Source: Acarospora socialis (Eukaryota > Ascomycota > Lecanoromycetes > Acarosporales > Acarosporaceae). Taken from it: a stretch of DNA of 64,000 nt. Position 1 is the stretch's first letter; every line of letters starts with the position of its first letter. Position numbers and translations under genes: made by a program. This document shows, one piece after another, positions 51,458-64,000 of this stretch. The notes below the pieces were generated by a model. That model saw nothing but the letters and a program-made list of their open reading frames with translations, was not told the origin of the DNA and ran no database searches. The stretch is from contig JAMYGW020000003.1 of NCBI GenBank assembly GCA_025617375.2, positions 1,364,001-1,428,000 on the forward strand, written 5' to 3'.

Positions 51458-53287
51458 ATGTCTTTTCCTCATACAGAAAAGGCTCCACGCCACTCCACCG
51501 CCTCCTCTACCGCCGAGGACTCAATTGCAGAGACAGTCTCAGTCCATGACCACTTCGATGAACCTGAGAAAGCACTCACGCCGCAGATCTCTCGAGTCGC
51601 CAGCGAACCCAGCAGACCTCCTCTCTCACGGAAAGCGACGTCAATCGGTACAACAGCCACCACAGATCCTGCATTCGAGATAGATTGGGAGGACGAAGAT
51701 GATACCGAGAATCCGAGGAATTGGCCGTTATGGTACAAGGGCGTGACTATCGGGTTTATATCTTGGTCGACATGGGTTGTGTATGTCTTCTCGGGCCCTC
51801 CATGTTAGCTTGAGTGACCCTGTTCTGATTAATACGTCACACCCACAGAGTCCTTTACTCGACATCATACACCTCCGGCCTTGCCAACATGATGGTCGAT
51901 TTCAACGTGACCTCCGAACCACTCGTTGCGCTTGGGATAACCACCTACCTCCTTGGTCTGGCCGTTGGCTCCGTAATCCTGGCACCTGTCTCCGAAATCT
52001 ACGGCCGCCGACCCGTCTATATCGTCAGCATGGGACTCTTCATGGTTCTGATTATTCCAACCGGCCTCGGAAACTCCCTCGCAGAAGTCCTGGTGGTACG
52101 CTTCTTTGGCGCCGTGGCTGGCAGCGCCATGATCGCCAACGCCCCCGGCACGATTTCGGATATCGTCTATGACGAGTACCGAGCTTTGGCTTTTAGTATC
52201 TGGAGCATTGGGCCGCTCAACGGTCCTGTGTTCGGCCCGGTCATCGGTGGATTCGTGACCCAGTATATGGGTTGGCGGTGGACGAACTGGCTTGTGATGA
52301 TACTGTCGGGCGTGGCTTGGGCTTTTGTATGCATCTTGAAAGAAACGTACAGCCCGGCATTATTGCAGAAGAAGGCGAGGAAGCGAAGGAAAGAGACGGG
52401 TGACGGGAGGTGGTGGAGTCGGTACGATCAGAAGATCGACTTTTGGGAGAGACTGAGGGTCAATCTAAGTCGACCGTTCGTCATGACTTTCACTGAGCCT
52501 ATCTGGTAAACCATCCCTTCCCTCACCTTTCCTTCCATTGCACCAAACTAACCCGCCACACAGCATCTTCTGGGACGTCTACATCGCCATCATCTACGGC
52601 ATCCTCTACCTCTGCTTCGTCGCCTACCCCATCGTCTTCACCCAGATCCGCGGCTGGGCGCCCGGCATCTCGGGCCTGGCCTTCGTCGGCATCGGCGTCG
52701 GCTCCTTCGCCGTCATCGCCGCCGAGCCCCTCATCCGGCGCATGATCAACGCCCACAAACCCGACCCGGAAACCGGCAAGGTCCCGCCCGAAGCCATGGT
52801 CAGCGTCGTCTGCATCGCCGCCGTGCTCGCGCCCATCGGCGAGCTCTGGTTCGCCTGGACGTGCGTGCCCGTCACCAGGCACTGGATCTGGCCTATCCTG
52901 GCCGGCGTCCCCTTCGGCGCGGGAAACACGACCGTCTTCATCTACGCCAACAATTACCTCACCCACAGCTACGGCATCTACGCCGCCAGCGCCATGGCGG
53001 GGAACTCGGTCGTGCGCTCCCTCATCGGGGGCACGTTGCCGCTTGCGGGGCCAGCCATGTATTCGAAACTCGGACCGCATTGGGCCGGCACGTTGTTGGG
53101 CTTGGTGCAGGTCGCTATCATTCCGATCCCGGTCGTGTTTTATAAGTATGGGGCGGGCATTCGGAGGAGGAGTGCGTTGATTAGTAGTATGCAGGCTGAC
53201 AAGGCCCGCTTGGAGGGGAAGAGGGAGAGGGCCGCGTCGAAGGCGGAGAACGGGGTTGCGGTGGAGAAAGCGGATGTCGAAGCCTGA
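51458..53287 (+). CDS. MFS drug:H+ antiporter, DHA1 (12-TM) type
   Basis: Plasma-membrane exporter of the major facilitator superfamily, close to fungal multidrug and polyamine transporters. Three exons: 51458-51780, 51849-52505 and 52564-53287, giving 567 aa. A Ser/Thr-rich cytosolic N-terminus ends in DPENPRNW-like DTENPRNWPLWYKG, which precedes TM1 in this family. TM1 follows, then the motif-A-like loop between TM2 and TM3 reads APVSEIYGRRPVYI. Motif C appears as SIGPLNGPVFGPVIGGFV in TM5. A long central cytosolic loop separates the two six-helix halves. The third exon is markedly C/G-rich compared with exon 1. The C-terminal tail is charged and Lys/Arg-rich. The ATG at 51458 was chosen because earlier in-frame starts are not ATG. 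The substrate is unknown. Confidence 0.92.
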
Positions 53288-54472
53288 ATTCCATATATTC
53301 TTAGACCCACGGATGGCGCTTTGAACCTTTGGATGACGCATTGAGGGTGGCATTTAGCGGGGCGTTTTCGGGTGTGGTGTTCCACAGGAGGGGTTGCGCG
53401 GGTTGGGTTTAAAGGCTCCTGCCGGTTTGTGATGAGTTTAGGGCTCTATTGAAGGGTGAGAACGGGAATGGGCAGAGAGGGGAAAGGCTACGAAGTATAT
53501 ACACTTATATTTAGGACTACCCAAGAAAGAAGTCTCATTCCGTTTTTCTGCTCCAGAGGTGAGCGAGTGCTACCTTTTCCCCAGCCGAGCTTGACCAACC
53601 CTAAGCACCGGCCGAGCCTCCCTGAGTAGCCCCTGGGCGCTTCCTAAGGTAGTTGGGGCCCATGCAGGGTGCAGCATCAGGGAACCTGAACCAGCTGCCT
53701 TGTCACGCCTCGCCCAAGTCTCGCCAGTATCTAGGCGATGCCCACCTGAGACAAGAGAATTGGGGGCCGTTTGTGTGCCAATCAATCAAGTCTGTTCTCG
53801 AACTACCTAAGATACAGACCGCATTGCACAGCATATGGCGAAGCTTCCATGCCAGTCAGCTGCTGTGCCAATCCCTGTGCAAGCTATACAGTGAAGTGTT
53901 CATTTCGAGGAAGGTTGGGTATTTGCTGCCTTATGAGTAACGTCATGGATCCAGACTCTAGATACCCTGCTTACACCACCTTGATGACGTGCATGAGCGA
54001 TGCAGTAGCACGGACGAAGCTGAAGGCAAGTCGTCACAATGGAGGGCCTCCGTACTACTACACCTTACTGTACAGCCTTGAAATTGTGCGAGGGTGATGC
54101 CTCTGAAGCGGAGTGTTTGGATGGGTTGTAGTGTATTGATTTAATTTTTAACTATACCGTAAATAGCATGTAGCTCTTGCGAATGCTGCCGTAAGTTGGT
54201 GTAGTGATCATGCATTCTCCTAGCGACCAGGTCTGACTGTATCAGATTTGATGAGTGTGGATGGGTGGTATTGGCTCAGACATCTACCTGCTTTCGTCAG
54301 TGTGATCAACTGTTGATGATCATCTTCAGCCCCACGCGGCATGGTTAGATGTTATTACACATGTTCTGTGATACTGAGTGTTTCAAATATGCTCATTTTA
54401 AATCTGACATTCATATATAAGGTGCATCAAGACGTTCTTATGGTCTTCGCACTTCGTCTGTTTTGATCAATA
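53288..54472. other. Intergenic stretch, no gene supported
   Basis: Short frames only. It carries two palindromic motifs of the CCTAAGGTAG type (53643-53652 and 53804-53811) and the TATA box of the next gene. Confidence 0.4.
54414..54420 (+). promoter_or_regulatory. TATA box TATATAA of the rhodopsin-like gene
   Basis: A TATA element 53 nt upstream of the start codon at 54473. The short distance implies a short 5' UTR. Confidence 0.45.
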
Positions 54473-55735
54473 ATGGCGCAGTCTGCTACCCCAGACAGAG
54501 GCCCGGAAATAGTCGCTGTATCCGGTACCTTGCTGGCCCTGACCACGGTGGCGGTAGCTCTCCGCGTCTGGGGTAGATATGTCGGAAACAAGGCTGGTTT
54601 ATGGTGGGATGACTGGCTCTCGCTGGCCGCTCTTGTAGGTTGGATCCTGTTGCAGCTGACTACAACACAGTACTGATTCTTCTTTTTGTATCGCAGCCTT
54701 TTAACTGGGCAATCTGTGCACTGAGTATGTACTGGGTGTCTATTGGACTTGGGAAACACATTGAACAAGTTCATACACCTCAAACAAAGTTGGCTGTCGT
54801 TCTCTTCGCTATGGAGCTTTTGTATAACACTGGCCTCACTCTGATTAAGATGTCTGTGTTACTATTCTATGTTCGTGTGTTCAAGATTCAAGTCTATCGA
54901 ATCATCTTCTGGATCACAGGAATCATCATTGTTGGCTGGTGTATTGGTTTAGATTTGCTCCCAATGTTAGCATGCAAGCCCATTCAAAAGTTTTGGAACC
55001 CAGCTGTTCCAGGTCATTGCAGCAATGAACAAAAATATCTTGTTGGGACAAAAATACCAAACGTCCTGACAGACTTGGTTTTACTGGTCCTGCCAATGGC
55101 TATGGTGTGGCGTCTGCAGCTCAGGACTTCACGCAAAGTTGGATTGGTTGGAGTGTTTGCAGCTGGATACTGGTAAGTCTTAGAGCAAAAGATTATGAAT
55201 CCAATCTATGCTGAACTAGAAATAGTGTCCTCGTTCTGTCAGTGCTACGCTTAGTGTTCATTGCTCAACTGGATGATACGCTGGAAAAGGATACAACATG
55301 TATGTTTTTTTGATAAACAACGCCATCAGCTCTATTTTGTGTCTGACAAGATATATAGGGAACGGAGTAACATCAGTGATCTTATGCATATGTGAAGTCT
55401 CAATCGCTCTAATCAGCGGCTGTCTTCCTAGCATCTTCAACCTTGCCAAACATGCCGCCGGAAGGCAGATCTCATCTCTGTTCAGCAGATTAACTGGTTC
55501 AAACCCCTTAGGTGGCACTGCCAAAGCCAATCCGGGAGACTCCAATGACAGAGTCTTTGACAACAAGGGCGGAGCGGATCATTACACAACGGCATACCCT
55601 CTTGTGCATGACCGCAACCACCGAATCGAGGACCCGGAGATGGGCACACAATTGCAGCAGATCCTTGTCCGTAGCGACATACACATTGGGGTTGTTGTTC
55701 ACAGCAGCCATAAGCCCACGGACAGAATGAGCTAG
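54473..55735 (+). CDS. Fungal rhodopsin-domain integral membrane protein
   Basis: Seven-helix integral membrane protein of the fungal rhodopsin-like domain, the group often labelled PTH11-related though lacking a CFEM domain here. Four exons: 54473-54634, 54697-55172, 55226-55299 and 55359-55735, giving 362 aa. Family marks in order: ALTTVAVALRVWGRYV in TM1, LWWDDWLSLAAL, ALSMYWVSIGLGKHI, TLIKMSVLLFYVRVF, the ACKPIQKFWNP / GHCSNEQKY extracellular pair of cysteines, TDLVLLVLPMAMVWRLQL and DTTWNGVTSVILCICEVSIAL. A Ser/Gly/Asn-rich cytosolic tail of about 110 aa follows. The codons look more A/T-rich than in the MFS gene upstream. Ligand and role are unknown; relatives include candidate receptors. 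Confidence 0.9.
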
Positions 55736-57174
55736 CTATCAGGGAGGGCGGTGTGTCTACAATTTAAAAAATAGGTTATACAGCAGCTTTGGATCAATGT
55801 CAACAATCTGTGGACGGGTCTAGTTGGGTGAGATGTTGGGTCCTAGTGTTTCACTCGTGGTAGGACTATCCAGGACACTTATCTTGTGGTATCTCTTACG
55901 GGGCTGGGAGTTTAGGATGAAATGAATAGGACAACAAGTAGTAATATGGAACGAAGGAACCTGGGCGCATGGTTGTTCTGATTATTTGGAGCGGAAGAGA
56001 CTCTCTCTGTTGTATAATGGTATACACTCCGTATACAATGGTGTGATGCATGCTAATGCTAATGTGCTACTGTTACTTGTGTCAAGATCCACATCACATG
56101 AGAAAGATAGAGCACATTCGCAAGTAGGTACATTCAGAAGTAGAGGTATGCTGTTTTTCAGAGGTGGTAGCAAGTTAGTAAAATCTTTGAATGTGGGATT
56201 TGGTGTGGTGCCGAACAATTCTGCAAAATAGTCATTCAACTCCGCAAGCGTACTGTAACATGCACGTGATATACTGACTTGTCAGCCGCACTGTACCAAG
56301 GTACGCCCATGGCTCATATCCCTCATCTTCCGCACGCTTTGAACTCCCTATGCCGCTCTGCGTTCTAGAGCAATTTTCCAGCCCGTTCAACGAGCTTGCA
56401 ATACGCCTTCAGCAGCTCTCGACTCGAATGACTAGCCCTTGCGGGTGAGCGCTTTATCGAGGTTCTCGTATAGCCTTAAGGTCAAAGACCAGCCGGCGCC
56501 ATCTCTGCCTCCTCACTCGTATATAACTCCTTTGGGAAACCGCTCTAGATGTTTCATGATTTCAAGCTCTATGGATGCTTGCCGACGTGTTCTCTGAGCG
56601 GTCCAGTAAATGCTGAGACGTCAGTACAAGCGGACTGGAGGTGGGGCACGATGTAGGATGCTCCGCTCTGATCACTCTTCATATGATCCAAACGAAAACA
56701 AGATAACACATATGATGACCTTATCTAACATCCGTCTCGCACTATCCTCTGATATGACTGTCCATGCCTAAAAGAGGAACAGCCTCCCCTAACGGCCGTT
56801 CAGGGTGAGCTTATCATGTGAGTAGCTGTCCCTTCTCATACTCTCTAAGAGGCAATGACATCCATATCACAAGACTTTCTAAATTCGACATTGCAGGTTG
56901 AGCTGAACAACAGTATGCGATCAGGATGGAGCCGCCGAACTCCTTTCAGAGCCCAATGGCAGAGGCTTTCAACCTTGGCACAGCGCATGATGGCACAAGT
57001 CTAAGATAAGTTATCGAACTTTACGGTAGTCTATGTAGGTAATATTTCTGGGGCTGCAGATAAACCTAAGGATAGTACGATTCCGAGAGTTCTCAGTCCG
57101 CAGTCATCTGACCGTGGTCTTACGAAGCTCTTTCAGCTTTCCTTTTTCTTCATAACCAAACTTTAAATAGTCTG
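55736..57174. other. Intergenic stretch left of the PKS relic, no gene supported
   Basis: Small frames at 55982-56239 on both strands are not supported. No PKS domain or element is recognisable beyond the ACP end. Confidence 0.4.
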
Positions 57175-58330
57175 TCAAGGTGCTTTTATCAGCAGATATG
57201 TGTCGCCGTCCTCCCTGACTTCAACCTCGTATTTGCGTCGCAACCCTTTAGATGCAAGTTTCCCCAGCTGCTCGATCGATCTAGAATTCACGATTTCTCA
57301 GCACACTGATTTCGAGTCCGAGATTTTGACGCCACCAATTTCGTATCTCGATAGCTACCAACGAGTCCACACCGAGAGCCGACAGCGACTGCTTCACATC
57401 GACATCATCTTCCGCTTTCTCGGCACACCTCGGGTTTTTCCACGCCTAGCTGTGCCAAATCTATTCCTATGAATGCACCATTGGGCTCGAAGAGATTCAT
57501 ACTCAACATTCCACGCCAATGAGGTCTCGTTGCCCAGTCTCGAGCATCTTACCAAAGTCCGCCACGCATTTCCAACATGCGTGAAGCAACTCACCAGATA
57601 AGAAGTTCAGAACTACATCAACTCCTCTACCATTTGTTTCGCGTATGAGGTCCGGCAGGAAAGAACTGTTCCGGGAATTGAATATGCGGTTACGGGGTAT
57701 TCCGAATGTCTTCATGAGATATTGGACCTTTTCTTCATTGCCTACCGTTGCAAAAATCTAGATCTATTAGCTCAGGGTCGTGCTGTAGTCGACGATCACC
57801 TACTTGAGCGCCTAGCATTTTGCATATCTGGATTGCTGCCAAGCCGATACCACCGCAAGCGGACTGGATCAGAAAAGTCTGTTCATATCTTGATGAGCCG
57901 CAAGATCATAGTTGACTGGGTCGTGGCCTTCTTACCTGGCCTTTTTCTAACCTCCCAATTGTCAACAGAGAGTAAATGACCGTGCTGTATACACACGGCA
58001 TCGTTGCAGCCTCCTCAAAGCTGAGATCGTAGGGCATCTTTACGCATAGCTTTGAGGAAGCAGCGAAGCGAGTCGAGAAGCAACCTTGTGCAAAGATAAC
58101 AACTCGGTCACCTATTTCCAAATCTCTTACCTCGGATCCGATTTGGCGTATAATACCAGAGCCTTCCAAGCCGATTCCTACCTTTGTTCCATCGACAACT
58201 GCCATAGCTATAAGAATATCCTAAGCATCAGTTAGTTAGGATTACCTCTACATGCGTTAGCAACATACTTTGAAGTTCAAACCGACAGCACGAGGCTCAA
58301 CATCAACTTGATCATGGGCCAGGTGAGGTG
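57175..58330 (-). pseudogene. Relic of a highly reducing PKS: enoyl reductase fused to ACP, KR missing
   Basis: Reading the minus strand, conserved HR-PKS enoyl-reductase sequence runs from VDVEPRAVGLNFK through GLEGSGIIRQIGSEVRDLE, TMPCVYSTVIYSLLTIG, SACGGIGLAAIQICKMLGA (NADPH loop) and [17 protein letters not shown]. Three ordinary introns are still spliceable (58268-58221, 57935-57879 and 57803-57758). Near 57510-57520 the frame changes. At about 57415-57435 the ER text (after [12 protein letters not shown]) jumps straight to an ACP, omitting the rest of ER and the whole ketoreductase, normally several hundred residues. The ACP retains the phosphopantetheine serine in [18 protein letters not shown] but has another frame change near 57291-57302. 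No KS, AT or DH is present upstream. Clearly a dead remnant. Confidence 0.85.
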
Positions 58331-58643
58331 CTGCCGTCGAGGGGCACAGTCACATGTCAAGGTTCTCCTGTCTCACAATGCTCCGCTTGCAAAGGATGCG
58401 TTCGTGCTTTTTGTTTCTTCTTAAGGCTTATTCATACGTCTCTATCTGCCGTCTGGAAATAGCCCGAACAATATGATCTATGTATCTGCGACCAGGGAAA
58501 TGCTCGCACATTGCGGGTCGGTTCGTCAAATCAAGCATCCCATCTCCCCTCCCTCACTCAAGGCTCTCTATATTGGCTCCCGAGCCCTGTACACACCACA
58601 ACCCAACCGCTCGCTCCATCTCCCTACTCCCACCCTTCCCAGT

Positions 58644-60802
58644 CTACACCTGCCCCTTCACGAACCTCAGCATAACCGGCTCTGCCGGCTTCGTGTTCAA
58701 CGCGAGCTTGATCTTCATCTCCTGCCCCCCGAGTACCCTATCCCCATCCATGCTCAGCAATTCCACAGCCGCAAACTCCTGGAAAATGCGACAGATCAGA
58801 TACTCCATCTCCATCCAGGCGAAGTTGCGGCCGAGACAGATCCGCGGGCCGTGGTTGAAGGGTAGGAATTCCCAATGCTTCGGCGTCCAGGTCTCCCAGC
58901 GTGAGGGGTCGAACGTGTCAGCTGTGGGACCGATAAGGTCGTGCCGGCGTTGGGTTCCGATGTAGGACATGACTAAAATTGAGCGGGTTTTGTTAGTTGG
59001 ATGAAAGGGGGAGATTGGAAAGGAAGTTTAGGAAAGGGGAGCAAGCTTTTAGTACCGATGTGGGTGCCTTTAGGGACGCCGATACGGTCCTTCCCGAGGG
59101 GACCGCCGCCAGTGGGCAGGAAGGTATCGTTGAATGCGGTGCGGATGTTGAAACCCACTACTTCGCTGTTAGATCATGACACCGTGATCAAAGGCAGCAC
59201 TATTTACATGGAGCGTGTAAACGCAGTGTTTCCTTGATAATGTTCTGCAGCAATGGCATGTTCTTCAACTGCGCTCTTGTAGGCAGTGTCGAGAAGCCGA
59301 CGCTGGAGTTGGGAACCGGGCTGTCTGTTAGCGGAGTCTTGCTCTGGTTCGGTCAAGGGAAAGTGTTCAACTCACGTCGAGGCAATTTCCGCCCGCAGAC
59401 TTTTGACAATGTGCGGATTACGGGCGAGTTCGTAGAATGCCCAGACGAGTGTGATGGAGCCAGGATCCTACCGGCTAGAATCAGCATCTTAACTTCCACT
59501 CCAGGGCACCCGCAAAGAATCGATCATGTGCTTACCTTGCCGCCAATCAGGACCGCCATCAGCTGGTCCTTGATGCGCTAAAAAGAGGATATTAGCAAAG
59601 CTCGGTAGGTGTAAGAGGTAGAATATGGGAGTGGCTTACCTTCCTGCTGACTTTCTGGAGTATCAAAGACCCTAGCAGGCTCTGCTCCTTCCTAATCTTT
59701 TCATTTGAATCCGTTTGTTCTACCACGGACATTGCCCGGTCAATCACATGGTCCAAGTAGTTGTTCAAGACGGCGGATGCTGCGGGCGTTCCCGGTAACA
59801 AGGCTCCCAGCTTCCTATATATCAAGCGGTTCAGTGTGTTAATCTTTACTATAAATTGGAAATGTAGGCGTACCCGATCAGAGTTCTCTTGGTGTTCCAG
59901 ACATACATCTCCTCGACCGCGTCCCGCAAAGGCTGCAGCTCTGTTGAAAGTGTACCGGCGGATTCGCCAAAGAATATGTCCGAAGCGACATCAAGAAGGA
60001 ATCGATCCATCTGATCAAGGCCTTCATGGGCTTTTTCATCAGATAGATTCCGGAGAAGTTGGATGACATGTCCTTCCATAATGGCGTAGTCAGTCATTCT
60101 ACTTTTGGCAGTCTGGCACGTCATCAGCACGTAAGATTTAATAGCACTTTGGAGTGAAAAGCACTGACGTGGTCGCGCAAAAGGTCTTTGTTTGAGTGCC
60201 ATACGGCTCCATCAGCTATTGCGGTAGGTCATTAATTTGAACCATTGGTTCCTTTGGCTGCTGGTGCGGAGCCATACTAGCAAAGACCGAGTCAAACATC
60301 AGGTCATACCAGATCTTGTGGAAAGCCTCGCCTTTTCCAAAATCGGAGAACTAGTAAGTGACATTGTTAGCACAGATAGTAGTAAGAATTCGCCAACTTA
60401 CTTTAGTTGATAGAACAGCTTTGATGTTGTCCGAATCATCGGTCATTAGGACCTGGATCCCTAACATGTTGAGCCTTACAGTTCGACCTGGAACATCGAG
60501 AATTTGACGAGTCCACTCGAAGAACTCATGGTTGAGGATTCTATTGATAGCTGTTGCAAAGAGATCAATGCCTAGACCCGAGCGTCAGATTGGAACATGT
60601 TGTGTAAAAGGCAATTGATATGGGTAATACCGAAAGGTGCCCAGTAAGTAACTGACGGAGCTTTCTGGCCGAGTTTTTTAAGTCTCTGATGTGCTGAGTT
60701 CCGCCTTCTGAGGAAGTGAACAATCCAGAGGAGGGCAGCGGTGCCAACAAAGAAACCACTTGGCAACGAGATGCGTTCAACAAGATTCTGTAAAACTGGC
60801 AT
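58644..60802 (-). CDS. Cytochrome P450, CYP52-clan-like
   Basis: Haem monooxygenase anchored in the ER by its N-terminal helix. Eleven exons join to 1554 nt (517 aa): 60802-60631, 60571-60402, 60350-60278, 60215-60169, 60112-59874, 59814-59640, 59577-59536, 59467-59376, 59320-59208, 59157-59056 and 58972-58644. It shows APSVTYWAPFG, FSDFGKGEAFHKIW, DIFFGESAGTL, the ExxR helix IIKETLRL, LPTGGGPLGKDRIGVPKGT, FDPSRWETW and the haem-thiolate loop FLPFNHGPRICLGRNFAW. The I-helix lacks the usual A-G-x-D/E-T-T and reads GGKDPGSITLVWAF. No stop or frame break was found. It sits about 300 bp from the PKS relic on the same strand, so it was probably its tailoring enzyme. The substrate is unknown. Confidence 0.88.
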
Positions 60803-61605
60803 TCTGAAATATGTCTCCTGATATACAATCACAATGGGATCTGGCTTCTGTTGCGAGTAAAGCTAGGATGCAATTTGAATATTAAGTTGAAATTGTAGGT
60901 AGCAGATTATCAGGAGTGAGGAAGAGAAATGGCAGACACTTAAGTAACACTCTTGTCAAGCTAGGTGCCTGGGCCGGATAGTATCAGCAGTGATCTTGCT
61001 TCATGAACAAGGCAGTGTTCCCGGAATTTGATAATCCATTCGTCTACTCACGGCCGAACTGACTCAAACCAGCTCGTTCAGCAAAGTCGATATAAATTTT
61101 GGCCTGAAATCCTCCGCGAAGCCATGGAATTTATCATGCAGTCTGACAGCCTTGTGCAATTAATCACTTTTATTATGGTAGCCAGAAAATAGCGTTAATG
61201 TAACATAACATGTAGATGCTCACAAACAATATGATGTAAGCCCAAACGCTGTGGTCCGGGCCGCCGTTGAGGGCGTAAGACATTGTCCTTGCCATCGGTT
61301 ACTCAAACATCCTGAGTATTCTCTGAATCTTTTCTTGATGTAGGCATACTTTCGTGAGCTGAGTCATGAAGTGACTTAATGACAGCCTTGTAGCGAGCAA
61401 GTTAGGGGTCCGGATAATACCTGCATGGTACGGCCGATCGATGGAACGGGTTGAACCATTTGCAGCCCGGACCAAATCAAGGAATCGAAGCAATACCAAC
61501 CATTCGTGAAAGGTATCCATGCCTTCCCAGGAGAGGATGAACTATTCTTTTTCTTAGGGGTGTTCCGCCCGTACTGTCATATGGCTTTGTTACACTGAGG
61601 AGTCC
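60803..61605. other. Spacer between the P450 and the methyltransferase relic
   Basis: Contains the presumed P450 promoter. A minus-strand frame of 73 codons (61520-61299) has no recognisable family. Confidence 0.4.
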
Positions 61606-62035
61606 GACACGGTGGCGAGGGCACAACTTGGTTGGAAGCCAGATGTGGATTTCATGCCTGCCGGCAATCTCATGCGTCTATACGCAAGTCTAAGGGACGA
61701 CAGCCTTAAACTCGAAAGACTTACACTCTTGTGCATGCTCGAGACCCATCATCGAATTTCGAGGCGCGAGACTATAGTTGACCACCTCAAGAAATTTCAT
61801 TCCTGGTTGGATCTCCAAGCGAGTCGGGCTAATAGAGGAGAATATGGTCTTCGAGAAGAGGGTCGACCCAATTGAGATCCTACTGCAAGAAGATGGACTC
61901 AAGAATCTCTATAAATTTTACCAAGAACATGTGGGATTGCCGGGACTTCTTTGCGCTGCTCGGCCATGCAAAACCAAACCTCGAAGCCTAAAGATAGGTG
62001 CAGGAACGGGCGGAACAACAGCTGGTGTGTTGAGA
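61606..62035 (+). pseudogene. Relic of a PKS C-methyltransferase (cMeT) domain
   Basis: Plus-strand remains of the linker and methyltransferase domain of an HR-PKS: LGWKPDVDFMPAGNLMRLY, LERLTLLCMLETHHRIS, DHLKKFHSWLD, then in another frame KRVDPIEILLQEDGLKNLYKF, then a further frame (CRDFFALLGHAKPN), and finally the SAM-binding KIGAGTGGTTAGVL near 61990-62035. At least three frame changes and a missing stretch of about 50 residues show it is dead. Orientation is opposite to the ER-ACP relic. If both came from one synthase, an inversion or rearrangement is implied. Confidence 0.82.
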
Positions 62036-63339
62036 GTCTCACATCGCAATCTAGTGAACGTACCATAGTACATCTACGGACATTCAGCTTCACGGCTTTA
62101 AGACTCATGGCTGGGATGGGGGAATGAGTTGCGCAGGTTGAAACAACGAACATGTGAGTACAGAGGAACAGCCCATGGGTGATGCTGCAGCCCTAAGAGC
62201 TAACTATGCCCTCTTATCTTACAATCCATGCGTGAAAAGCATATATGCAACTTTCAGTTAAAAACAAATATTGTTGAAGAGTCTTTCCGCCTAAGTCTAG
62301 ATTCATGAGCAGGTGTTCATGGTGTAGTACAAATGGTACTGGATCAGGATCCATCTGGATGCGACAATGACCACCAAATCCGGCGTAAACGGCATTAACA
62401 CTGAAGCCGACTCGGCGCATTAGATGGGATAATATTGGTTGCTACCTCATAAATATCGGCCCCTGCATGATATCTTCGAACCTCGCCTATGCAGGCTCTA
62501 GTACTGCTGGTATAAAGGTACTCCCGGCCCCTTTTGAGAATTTACTAGGGTTTGCGAAGGAAGCCGTGAACGCGCATCGGATTTCATCAAGTTTGCCACA
62601 TATCGTTTATGATGGCCTAATACTCTGTACCTCGTCCCGCCTGCCACTCTCACGTGTGCGCAATTCCACTTCCTTCAAATTCTCCGCTCCGCACCACAAA
62701 TTCTTTCTCGGCCGCATCGTTCTGTGCCAGCTCGGACTCTAGCCTTGTTCCGTGGTGTTTTTATACGGCCGTTCACTCGCAAGTGTCCCTGATCTCGTAC
62801 GAAGTACAGATGGCACGCAGGGGCTCGCTTCTTCTGACATAAGATACTTCGTACTGAACTTAAGTGTCGTACATACATGCTTCATGATATTTCTCAGTTC
62901 TACCCAGAATTGACACTATTTCCATATCACCATACCTTAACTCCTATTGGAAGTCATCTTACCTTAGAAGTCCTGCAACTTCGACATTTCTCTAGATACC
63001 TTACTTTATAAATGTACAAGTATGTACCTCAATGACAAGTCACAGTCTCCTGCAACTACATGTTATTAGTATCTTAGTGCTTATGGAACTTCTTGACTGA
63101 GCTCTTCACTGCTGTCTTTAAAGATATATTGTGTTCGATTGCTCACTTTCTTATTTGTTTGCTTCCGTTCTCTTTTATGTTTTCTCAGGCCATTATAACT
63201 ACCCCAGGTACCTACTTTCGTGGCCTATTGACTAGGCGGAATGTGAGCGCACCTCCTCCTTGTGTGCTGCACTCGTAATCGCATGAGCACTGATTATTGA
63301 GACAGTGTTGTTACGAAGATCAGAAGAGTCGCCTCTAAT
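62036..63339. other. Spacer between the cMeT relic and the MFS exporter
   Basis: No coding region is supported. A/T-rich sequence near 62880-63200 leads to the exporter gene and probably includes its promoter. Confidence 0.4.
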
Positions 63340-64000
63340 ATGGCGTCTTCTGTAATGGCTACAATCGAAAACAACAGTGAGCAAGCTCAACAACACCAGA
63401 TAGTAAACCTATCTCTCGCAAACAACGAAGCGAATGTCCATGAGAGTGACGAAACGGTTTCCATTGAAACCGAGAACTCCAGGACACAAATCATTCCACA
63501 GACCCCTAAGCAAGGCTCTACAGCCCCGGATCCAGAATGGAGAGCTGGTAGAAATGAATGGATGATCATCATTGTCTTGGCAGTTGTATCTTTGATGGTT
63601 GCGCTTGACGCCACGATCTTAGTACCAGTCTTGCCTGTAAGTCTCCCCGAATTCGACATCAACGTTGTCTGGTGTGTTAATGCTGCCAGGCTATCGCGAG
63701 CGACCTCCATGGCAATGCAACAGATACCTTCTGGACTGGGACAGCCTACCTCTTGACCCAGTCAGTCTTTCAACCCTTCATAGTCGCTCTTTCGGACGTC
63801 TTCGGCCGCCGTTCGCTTTACCTGATCTCGCTGGGCTTCTTCACGATAGGCACTCTACTCTGCTGCTTCTCCCAGAACTTTAATGAGTTATTGGCTGGTC
63901 GGTCAATTCAAGGAGTTGGTGGTGGAGGCATCCTAGCCTTGGGGCTGGTGATTCTGACCGACATCATACCGCTCCGCCAGAGGCCTATCTACTTGGGTGT
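63340..64000 (+). CDS. MFS exporter, DHA2 (14-TM) type, cut by the window edge
   Basis: Exon 1 (63340-63636) gives a polar N-terminus and TM1 (WMIIIVLAVVSLMVALDATILV). The intron 63637-63689 is followed by exon 2, which continues to the window end without a stop. TM2 and the motif A loop read ALSDVFGRRSLYLISLGFF, then CCFSQNFNELLAGRSIQGVGG, typical of the DHA2 aflatoxin-pump-like group. The protein is truncated at about 200 residues by the end of the sequence, not by mutation. Its place beside a P450 and PKS relics suggests it once exported the product. Confidence 0.9.

Follow-up and report, generated by a model that had tools for sequence, protein, structure and literature searches.

The window analysed here, a stretch of 64,000 nucleotides of Acarospora socialis DNA (G000:C3:1364001-1428000; assembly of 31.1 Mb in 38 contigs), holds a biosynthetic cluster that has decayed in part: a polyketide synthase (PKS) in pieces beside an intact cytochrome P450 and DHA2-type exporter. 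The locus is the remnant of a PKS-P450-exporter cluster conserved in other fungi, as each of the three proteins has relatives there that lie on common contigs under neighbouring locus numbers. We give a probability of about 0.75 to the explanation as a whole, in which a three-gene cluster was wrecked through an inversion and deletions and the P450 and exporter are still constrained. The original prediction, a decayed PKS cluster with both partners intact, is supported by the PKS pieces and by the open partner frames.

The window is fungal in character, with many short GT-AG introns per gene and top matches from ascomycetes. The closest named relatives came from Seirophora for the P450 (73%, among 84 matches), Loekoesia for the PKS ER (74%, among the best 120 of 2054 matches) and Xylographa for the exporter (78%, among the best 120 of 1313 matches), all of which we take to be lichen fungi. 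With best E values of 6e-102 (ER piece) and 1e-239 (P450), chance similarity is excluded. Seirophora is placed within the Teloschistales in PMC9907504. An Rfam search of 50-64 kb of the window gave no match. To the left of the PKS wreck lie a second MFS transporter (51829-53287) and a fungal rhodopsin-domain gene (54467-55735), neither with any sign of cluster membership. Reading by eye to the right of the exporter, we found a HET-like frame (L009:2751-3583) and, beyond it, long NACHT-like and ankyrin-repeat frames (L009:5111-10000 and L010:35-1375).

Synthase pieces and intact neighbours

The window and 19 kb beyond it were searched by tblastn with 11 HR-PKS relatives as queries. Each returned five to seven matched stretches at the same sites, which, together with Pfam matches on the ER reading frames, confirmed the predicted pair of PKS fragments, ER-ACP on the minus strand and cMeT on the plus strand. 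Two minus-strand open reading frames, 57503-57757 and 57906-58220, are zinc-type reductase domains (Pfam ADH_zinc_N and ADH_N, respectively), and both also match fatty acid synthase and PKS reductases. Our splice model joins them into 220 open ER residues over four exons (58325-57506, minus strand); the three introns between these are of the GT-AG type and measure 48, 57 and 46 nt. Exon a (58269-58325) holds the first recognisable ER residues, exon b (57936-58220) the ADH_N match and exon d (57515-57757) the ADH_zinc_N match, with exon c (57804-57878) between the latter two; all four were also matched by tblastn, whose minus-strand stretches run from 58322 to 57178. Exon d ends in a single-base frame break. 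A late ER piece follows in another frame (57420-57512), beyond which the remaining ER and the whole KR are absent. The ACP comes next (57299-57418, 90% to the relative P0085), with GVDSL, which we take to be the ACP motif. The C-terminus after the ACP (57178-57297), again in another frame, stops where relatives stop. The plus-strand fragment is limited to the DH-cMeT linker (61594-61866) and the first part of cMeT, which has a diverged SAM-binding motif and lies in the other frame (61847-62035), so that it spans 61594-62035 in two frames.

Several frame breaks had been proposed for each fragment. Most of those within the ER are explained by three introns misread as breaks, whereas single-base breaks near 57513 and 57298 and a frame change between the two plus-strand pieces are present. 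The minus side has further lost the end of the ER and the KR. Internal stop codons are absent from the matched pieces. With the 11 queries and E values up to 5, we also searched four gaps (60790-61600, 62030-63340, 58320-58660 and 55750-57190), where none of the absent parts (KS, AT, DH, the bulk of cMeT, the end of the ER, KR) gave a significant match and only weak, short matches were returned. A KR motif match at 58634-58569 on the minus strand (9 of 11 queries, E 0.09-1.9) was treated as chance, because it lies upstream of the ER, out of order, and adjoins the P450 stop. The HR-PKS order KS-AT-DH-cMeT-ER-KR-ACP in one chain is not found at the locus; the surviving pieces are homologous to and in register with full-length HR-PKSs. 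This PKS is a pseudogene of the HR-PKS family and not a working member.

Elsewhere in the genome there are 39 KS matches, and unrelated intact PKS genes exist. Some KS matches are in short pieces (C5:1823377-1824360, C1:771906-772181, C7:169199-170173 and C10:955225-955700), some of these with internal stops, and these may reflect introns or further decayed synthases.

The P450 (58644-60802, minus strand) lies between the two fragments and proved to be the uninterrupted 11-exon gene that had been predicted. Its 511-aa product, with the end of intron 8 placed at 59303 from relatives, aligns end to end with P0001 and P0003 and matches the whole PF00067 domain (188.8 bits, residues 71-470). The P450 signature motifs are ExxR and FxxGxRxCxG, here KETLR and FNHGPRICLG. 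The usual I-helix motif is AGxDTT; this protein has GGKDPGS. On the alignment, GGKDPGS is a family trait and no sign of decay, because relatives share the common form xGKDP (GGKDPSS, GGKDPGA, AGKDPVG). Several relatives (P0003, P0034 and P0052) bear CYP52 or alkane-hydroxylase names, which suggests, by name only, a CYP52-like enzyme. The closest solved structure is ancestral CYP11A1 (E 2e-25). A second relative, 38-44% to P0001 in two exons, lies at G000:C8:991991-993456; it is not beside a KS match, the nearest being about 38 kb away.

The exporter stands alongside, as had also been predicted. It occupies 63340-65209 on the plus strand, of which 63340-64000 falls in the window; it is cut by the window end at 64000 and continues to 65209 in the genome. 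The open frame is complete (586 aa) with two introns, 63637-63689 and 64440-64495. MFS_1/TRI12 profiles match over the whole chain (PF07690, 175.6 bits; PF06609, 74.5 bits), as for a DHA2-type MFS exporter, and relatives include pumps that annotators named FUS6.

Possible constraint on the surviving partners

To compare the three genes, we took the alignment columns in which at least 95% of relatives agree and scored how often each gene departs from the common residue. Summed over its six pieces, the PKS deviates at 8 of 90 such columns. The ER contributes 4 of 61 by share, a level that none of 120 relatives reaches; counted by number (4 of 62), 2 of 120 relatives do. With the cut-off at 85 or 90%, 5% of relatives show as large an excess, and at 99% the share is 10%. 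In cMeT 3 of 8 columns deviate, above all 107 relatives; the late ER deviates at 1 of 7, as much as 9 of 90 relatives do. The linker (0/3), ACP (0/7) and C-terminus (0/4) together show none in 14. Neither partner deviates at all, the P450 at 0 of 38 columns (against 22 of its 84 matches) and the exporter at 0 of 78 (against 60 of its best 120 matches); their counts remain low at other cut-offs as well, with 2 of 91 and 1 of 130 at 85%. By Fisher's test the PKS differs from the two partners combined (0/116; p 0.001) and from the exporter alone (p 0.008), with p 0.10 against the P450 alone. As the comparison sets differ in depth and diversity, these counts lean towards a P450 and exporter that are still constrained and are not proof.

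We consider it somewhat better than an even chance that, by these residue counts, constraint on the partners continued after the PKS died. The strongest competitor is a freshly lost pathway, in which all three genes became useless together and the P450 and exporter have simply not yet been hit; we think this a real prospect, with odds of about one in three. The death of the PKS does not appear old, given its long open stretches, the 220 ER residues among them, and the absence of deviations at the 14 conserved columns of the ACP, C-terminus and linker. With no internal stops in the matched pieces, it may even have happened so recently that constraint would look no different from a mere want of time, and the comparison with the P450 alone falls short of significance. 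Against a fresh loss stand the contrasts with the exporter and with both partners, and the lesions themselves: the coding DNA of P450 and exporter, about 3.3 kb in all, carries no indel, against two small frame breaks in the PKS and the loss of several large parts of it.

If constraint did continue, the partners would probably be held because one or both act on another lipid or polyketide. For the P450, an alternative role would be the hydroxylation of fatty-acid-like chains. A more specific idea, which we regard as tentative and rather unlikely, is that the death of the PKS left P450 and exporter as an orphan pair that still works and has taken on another task: the P450 would oxidise, and the exporter remove, some other chain made in the thallus, be it a fatty acid, another synthase's product or a lipid of a partner organism. 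If true, a pathway wreck would have become a small detoxifying or tailoring unit.

Origin of the broken synthase

That a collapsed or misjoined stretch of the assembly hides an intact PKS is very improbable. The two small frame breaks, being of a single base, could be base-calling errors, but such errors do not suffice for a protein that lacks well over half its length, is split over two strands and has changes at conserved sites. Nor do the ER and linker have a near copy elsewhere in the 31.1-Mb assembly, where no other ER match exceeds 38% (the best are at 34-38%) and the linker piece has no match.

The two fragments fit one protein. On P0086 (2499 aa), the plus-strand pieces map by tblastn to residues 1217-1307 and 1350-1412 and the minus-strand pieces to 1787-2035, 2420-2459 and 2460-2499; the six pieces follow its order and cover non-overlapping parts. 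For ranking, the ER piece was used to collect 2054 proteins at E up to 0.001 and the best 120 were kept, most of them HR-PKSs of about 2500 aa. Among these, P0086 and P0085 ranked first and second for the linker, second and first for both ACP and ER, first and third for the C-terminus, third and first for cMeT, and fifth and third for the late ER. The linker is 67% identical to P0086 despite its poor conservation (3 columns at 95%). Quick trees place the ER piece beside P0086, P0085 and P0092-P0095 at an SH-aLRT of 93; for the linker the group is P0086, P0085 and P0094, at 83, and both values are below 95. A check for unrelated synthases had accompanied the original prediction, which the comparison did not refute: whichever of the six pieces is taken, P0085 and P0086 are both in the top five of 120, so that by homology the fragments on the two strands are most likely one synthase. 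Derivation from two different synthases is highly improbable: the fragments do lie on opposite strands with the P450 between them, and a set picked by the ER piece could miss a better linker relative outside it, but the same two proteins rank at the top for both fragments, which cover separate parts of the protein and fall into overlapping tree groups.

Some annotations among these relatives are irregular. The Pfam lists of P0085, the nearest ER relative, and of P0092 (999 aa), both from other Teloschistales-type lichens, hold no KS domain; these models may reflect draft assembly or repeated decay of the same gene. The Lasiodiplodia theobromae relative P0090 bears the name of a PKS-NRPS hybrid (lepA), probably an annotation error, since no NRPS domain stands in its Pfam list.

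From left to right, the present order is ACP-ER (minus), P450 (minus), linker-cMeT (plus) and exporter (plus). Flipping 58.3-62.0 kb yields, by coordinates, a collinear ACP-ER-cMeT-linker on the minus strand, followed by P450 and exporter on the plus strand. In this flipped layout the PKS is divergent from the P450, which sits between PKS and exporter, in agreement with the exporter-P450 order in Pycnora. We infer that a single inversion with deletions is the shortest, though unproven, account. The HR-PKS and P450 would ancestrally have been divergent, with the exporter past the P450. An inversion would then have parted cMeT from ER with one of its ends, inside the synthase, while its second end fell past the 3' end of the P450. 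Later deletions would have taken away KS-AT-DH, the bulk of cMeT, the end of the ER and the KR, and small frame breaks would have been added after the inversion; the P450 and exporter would have been left whole, with their own upstream DNA. Under this model KS-AT-DH would have been deleted from the stretch between the P450 start and the linker (60803-61593). Contrary to what the model leads one to expect, KS, AT and DH left no trace between P450 and linker. Repeats at the break points are only short and imperfect. RIP was rejected as the cause of decay, the composite index being -0.60 for the ER and -0.73 for linker/cMeT against -0.46 for the window.

Related clusters and pathway loss

We compared longest-contig sizes and locus numbers among all 84 P450 matches, the best 120 of 2054 PKSs and the best 120 of 1313 transporters. 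A shared contig was inferred from equal size of the longest contig, a reading backed by consecutive locus numbers in 6 of the 13 contig-sharing pairs. Among the matches listed, at least two P450-PKS, three P450-exporter and eight PKS-exporter pairs share a contig. In Pycnora praestabilis all three relatives lie on a contig of 688,805 bases, with exporter M1827_006612 adjoining P450 M1827_006613, and related pairs were found on 10 further contigs among the matches listed. In L. theobromae the P450 and PKS are g1894 and g1895, and PKS and exporter share a 95,674-base contig. Neighbouring P450 and exporter genes occur in Cladophialophora carrionii (G647_00752, _00753) and Pseudogymnoascus VKM F-4281 (V493_05365, _05366), and neighbouring PKS and exporter genes in Paraphaeosphaeria sporulosa (DPSP01_000571, _000572) and Pseudogymnoascus VKM F-4520 (V502_01879, _01878). 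PKS and exporter also share contigs in Lojkania, Bimuria and Phaeosphaeria; the Cladobotryum pair is a weak case, as its shared contig is as large as 4 Mb. Relatives of all three proteins are thus neighbours in other fungi by position, strands not being visible. A literature search did not find the trio described. It is an undescribed and widely shared arrangement, and its product could be sought in fungi with the whole cluster.

The HR-PKS, lacking a release domain, would have made a reduced chain. Its C-terminus after the ACP stops where those of relatives do and shows no release domain, so that freeing the chain would have been the task of another enzyme. The CYP52 names of relatives suggest that the putative CYP52-like P450 would oxidise an alkyl chain, and the DHA2 exporter would move the product out.

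The locus catches a cluster partway through loss, its core broken and its partners seemingly constrained at the sequence level; should both partners turn out to be in use, the locus would show cleanly how genes for tailoring and transport can outlast the synthase they served. The P450 resembles CYP52-type fatty acid and alkane hydroxylases in the names of its relatives and differs in its I-helix, GGKDPGS against AGxDTT. The clusters of Pycnora, L. theobromae and other ascomycetes resemble the locus in their proteins (PKS 67-70% in the ER, P450 43-57%, exporter 51-67%), shared contigs and neighbouring numbers. Their PKSs, however, are listed as full length (2529 aa in P0088, 2421 aa in P0091), whereas that of A. 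socialis is fragmented over two strands. Such pathway loss is already known: in Pizarro et al. (2020, PMC7643366), loss of the usnic acid cluster is a source of chemical difference among lichen-forming fungi. Non-producers in that case lack the cluster entirely, whereas at the present locus the break is confined to the core gene and the P450 and exporter stay.
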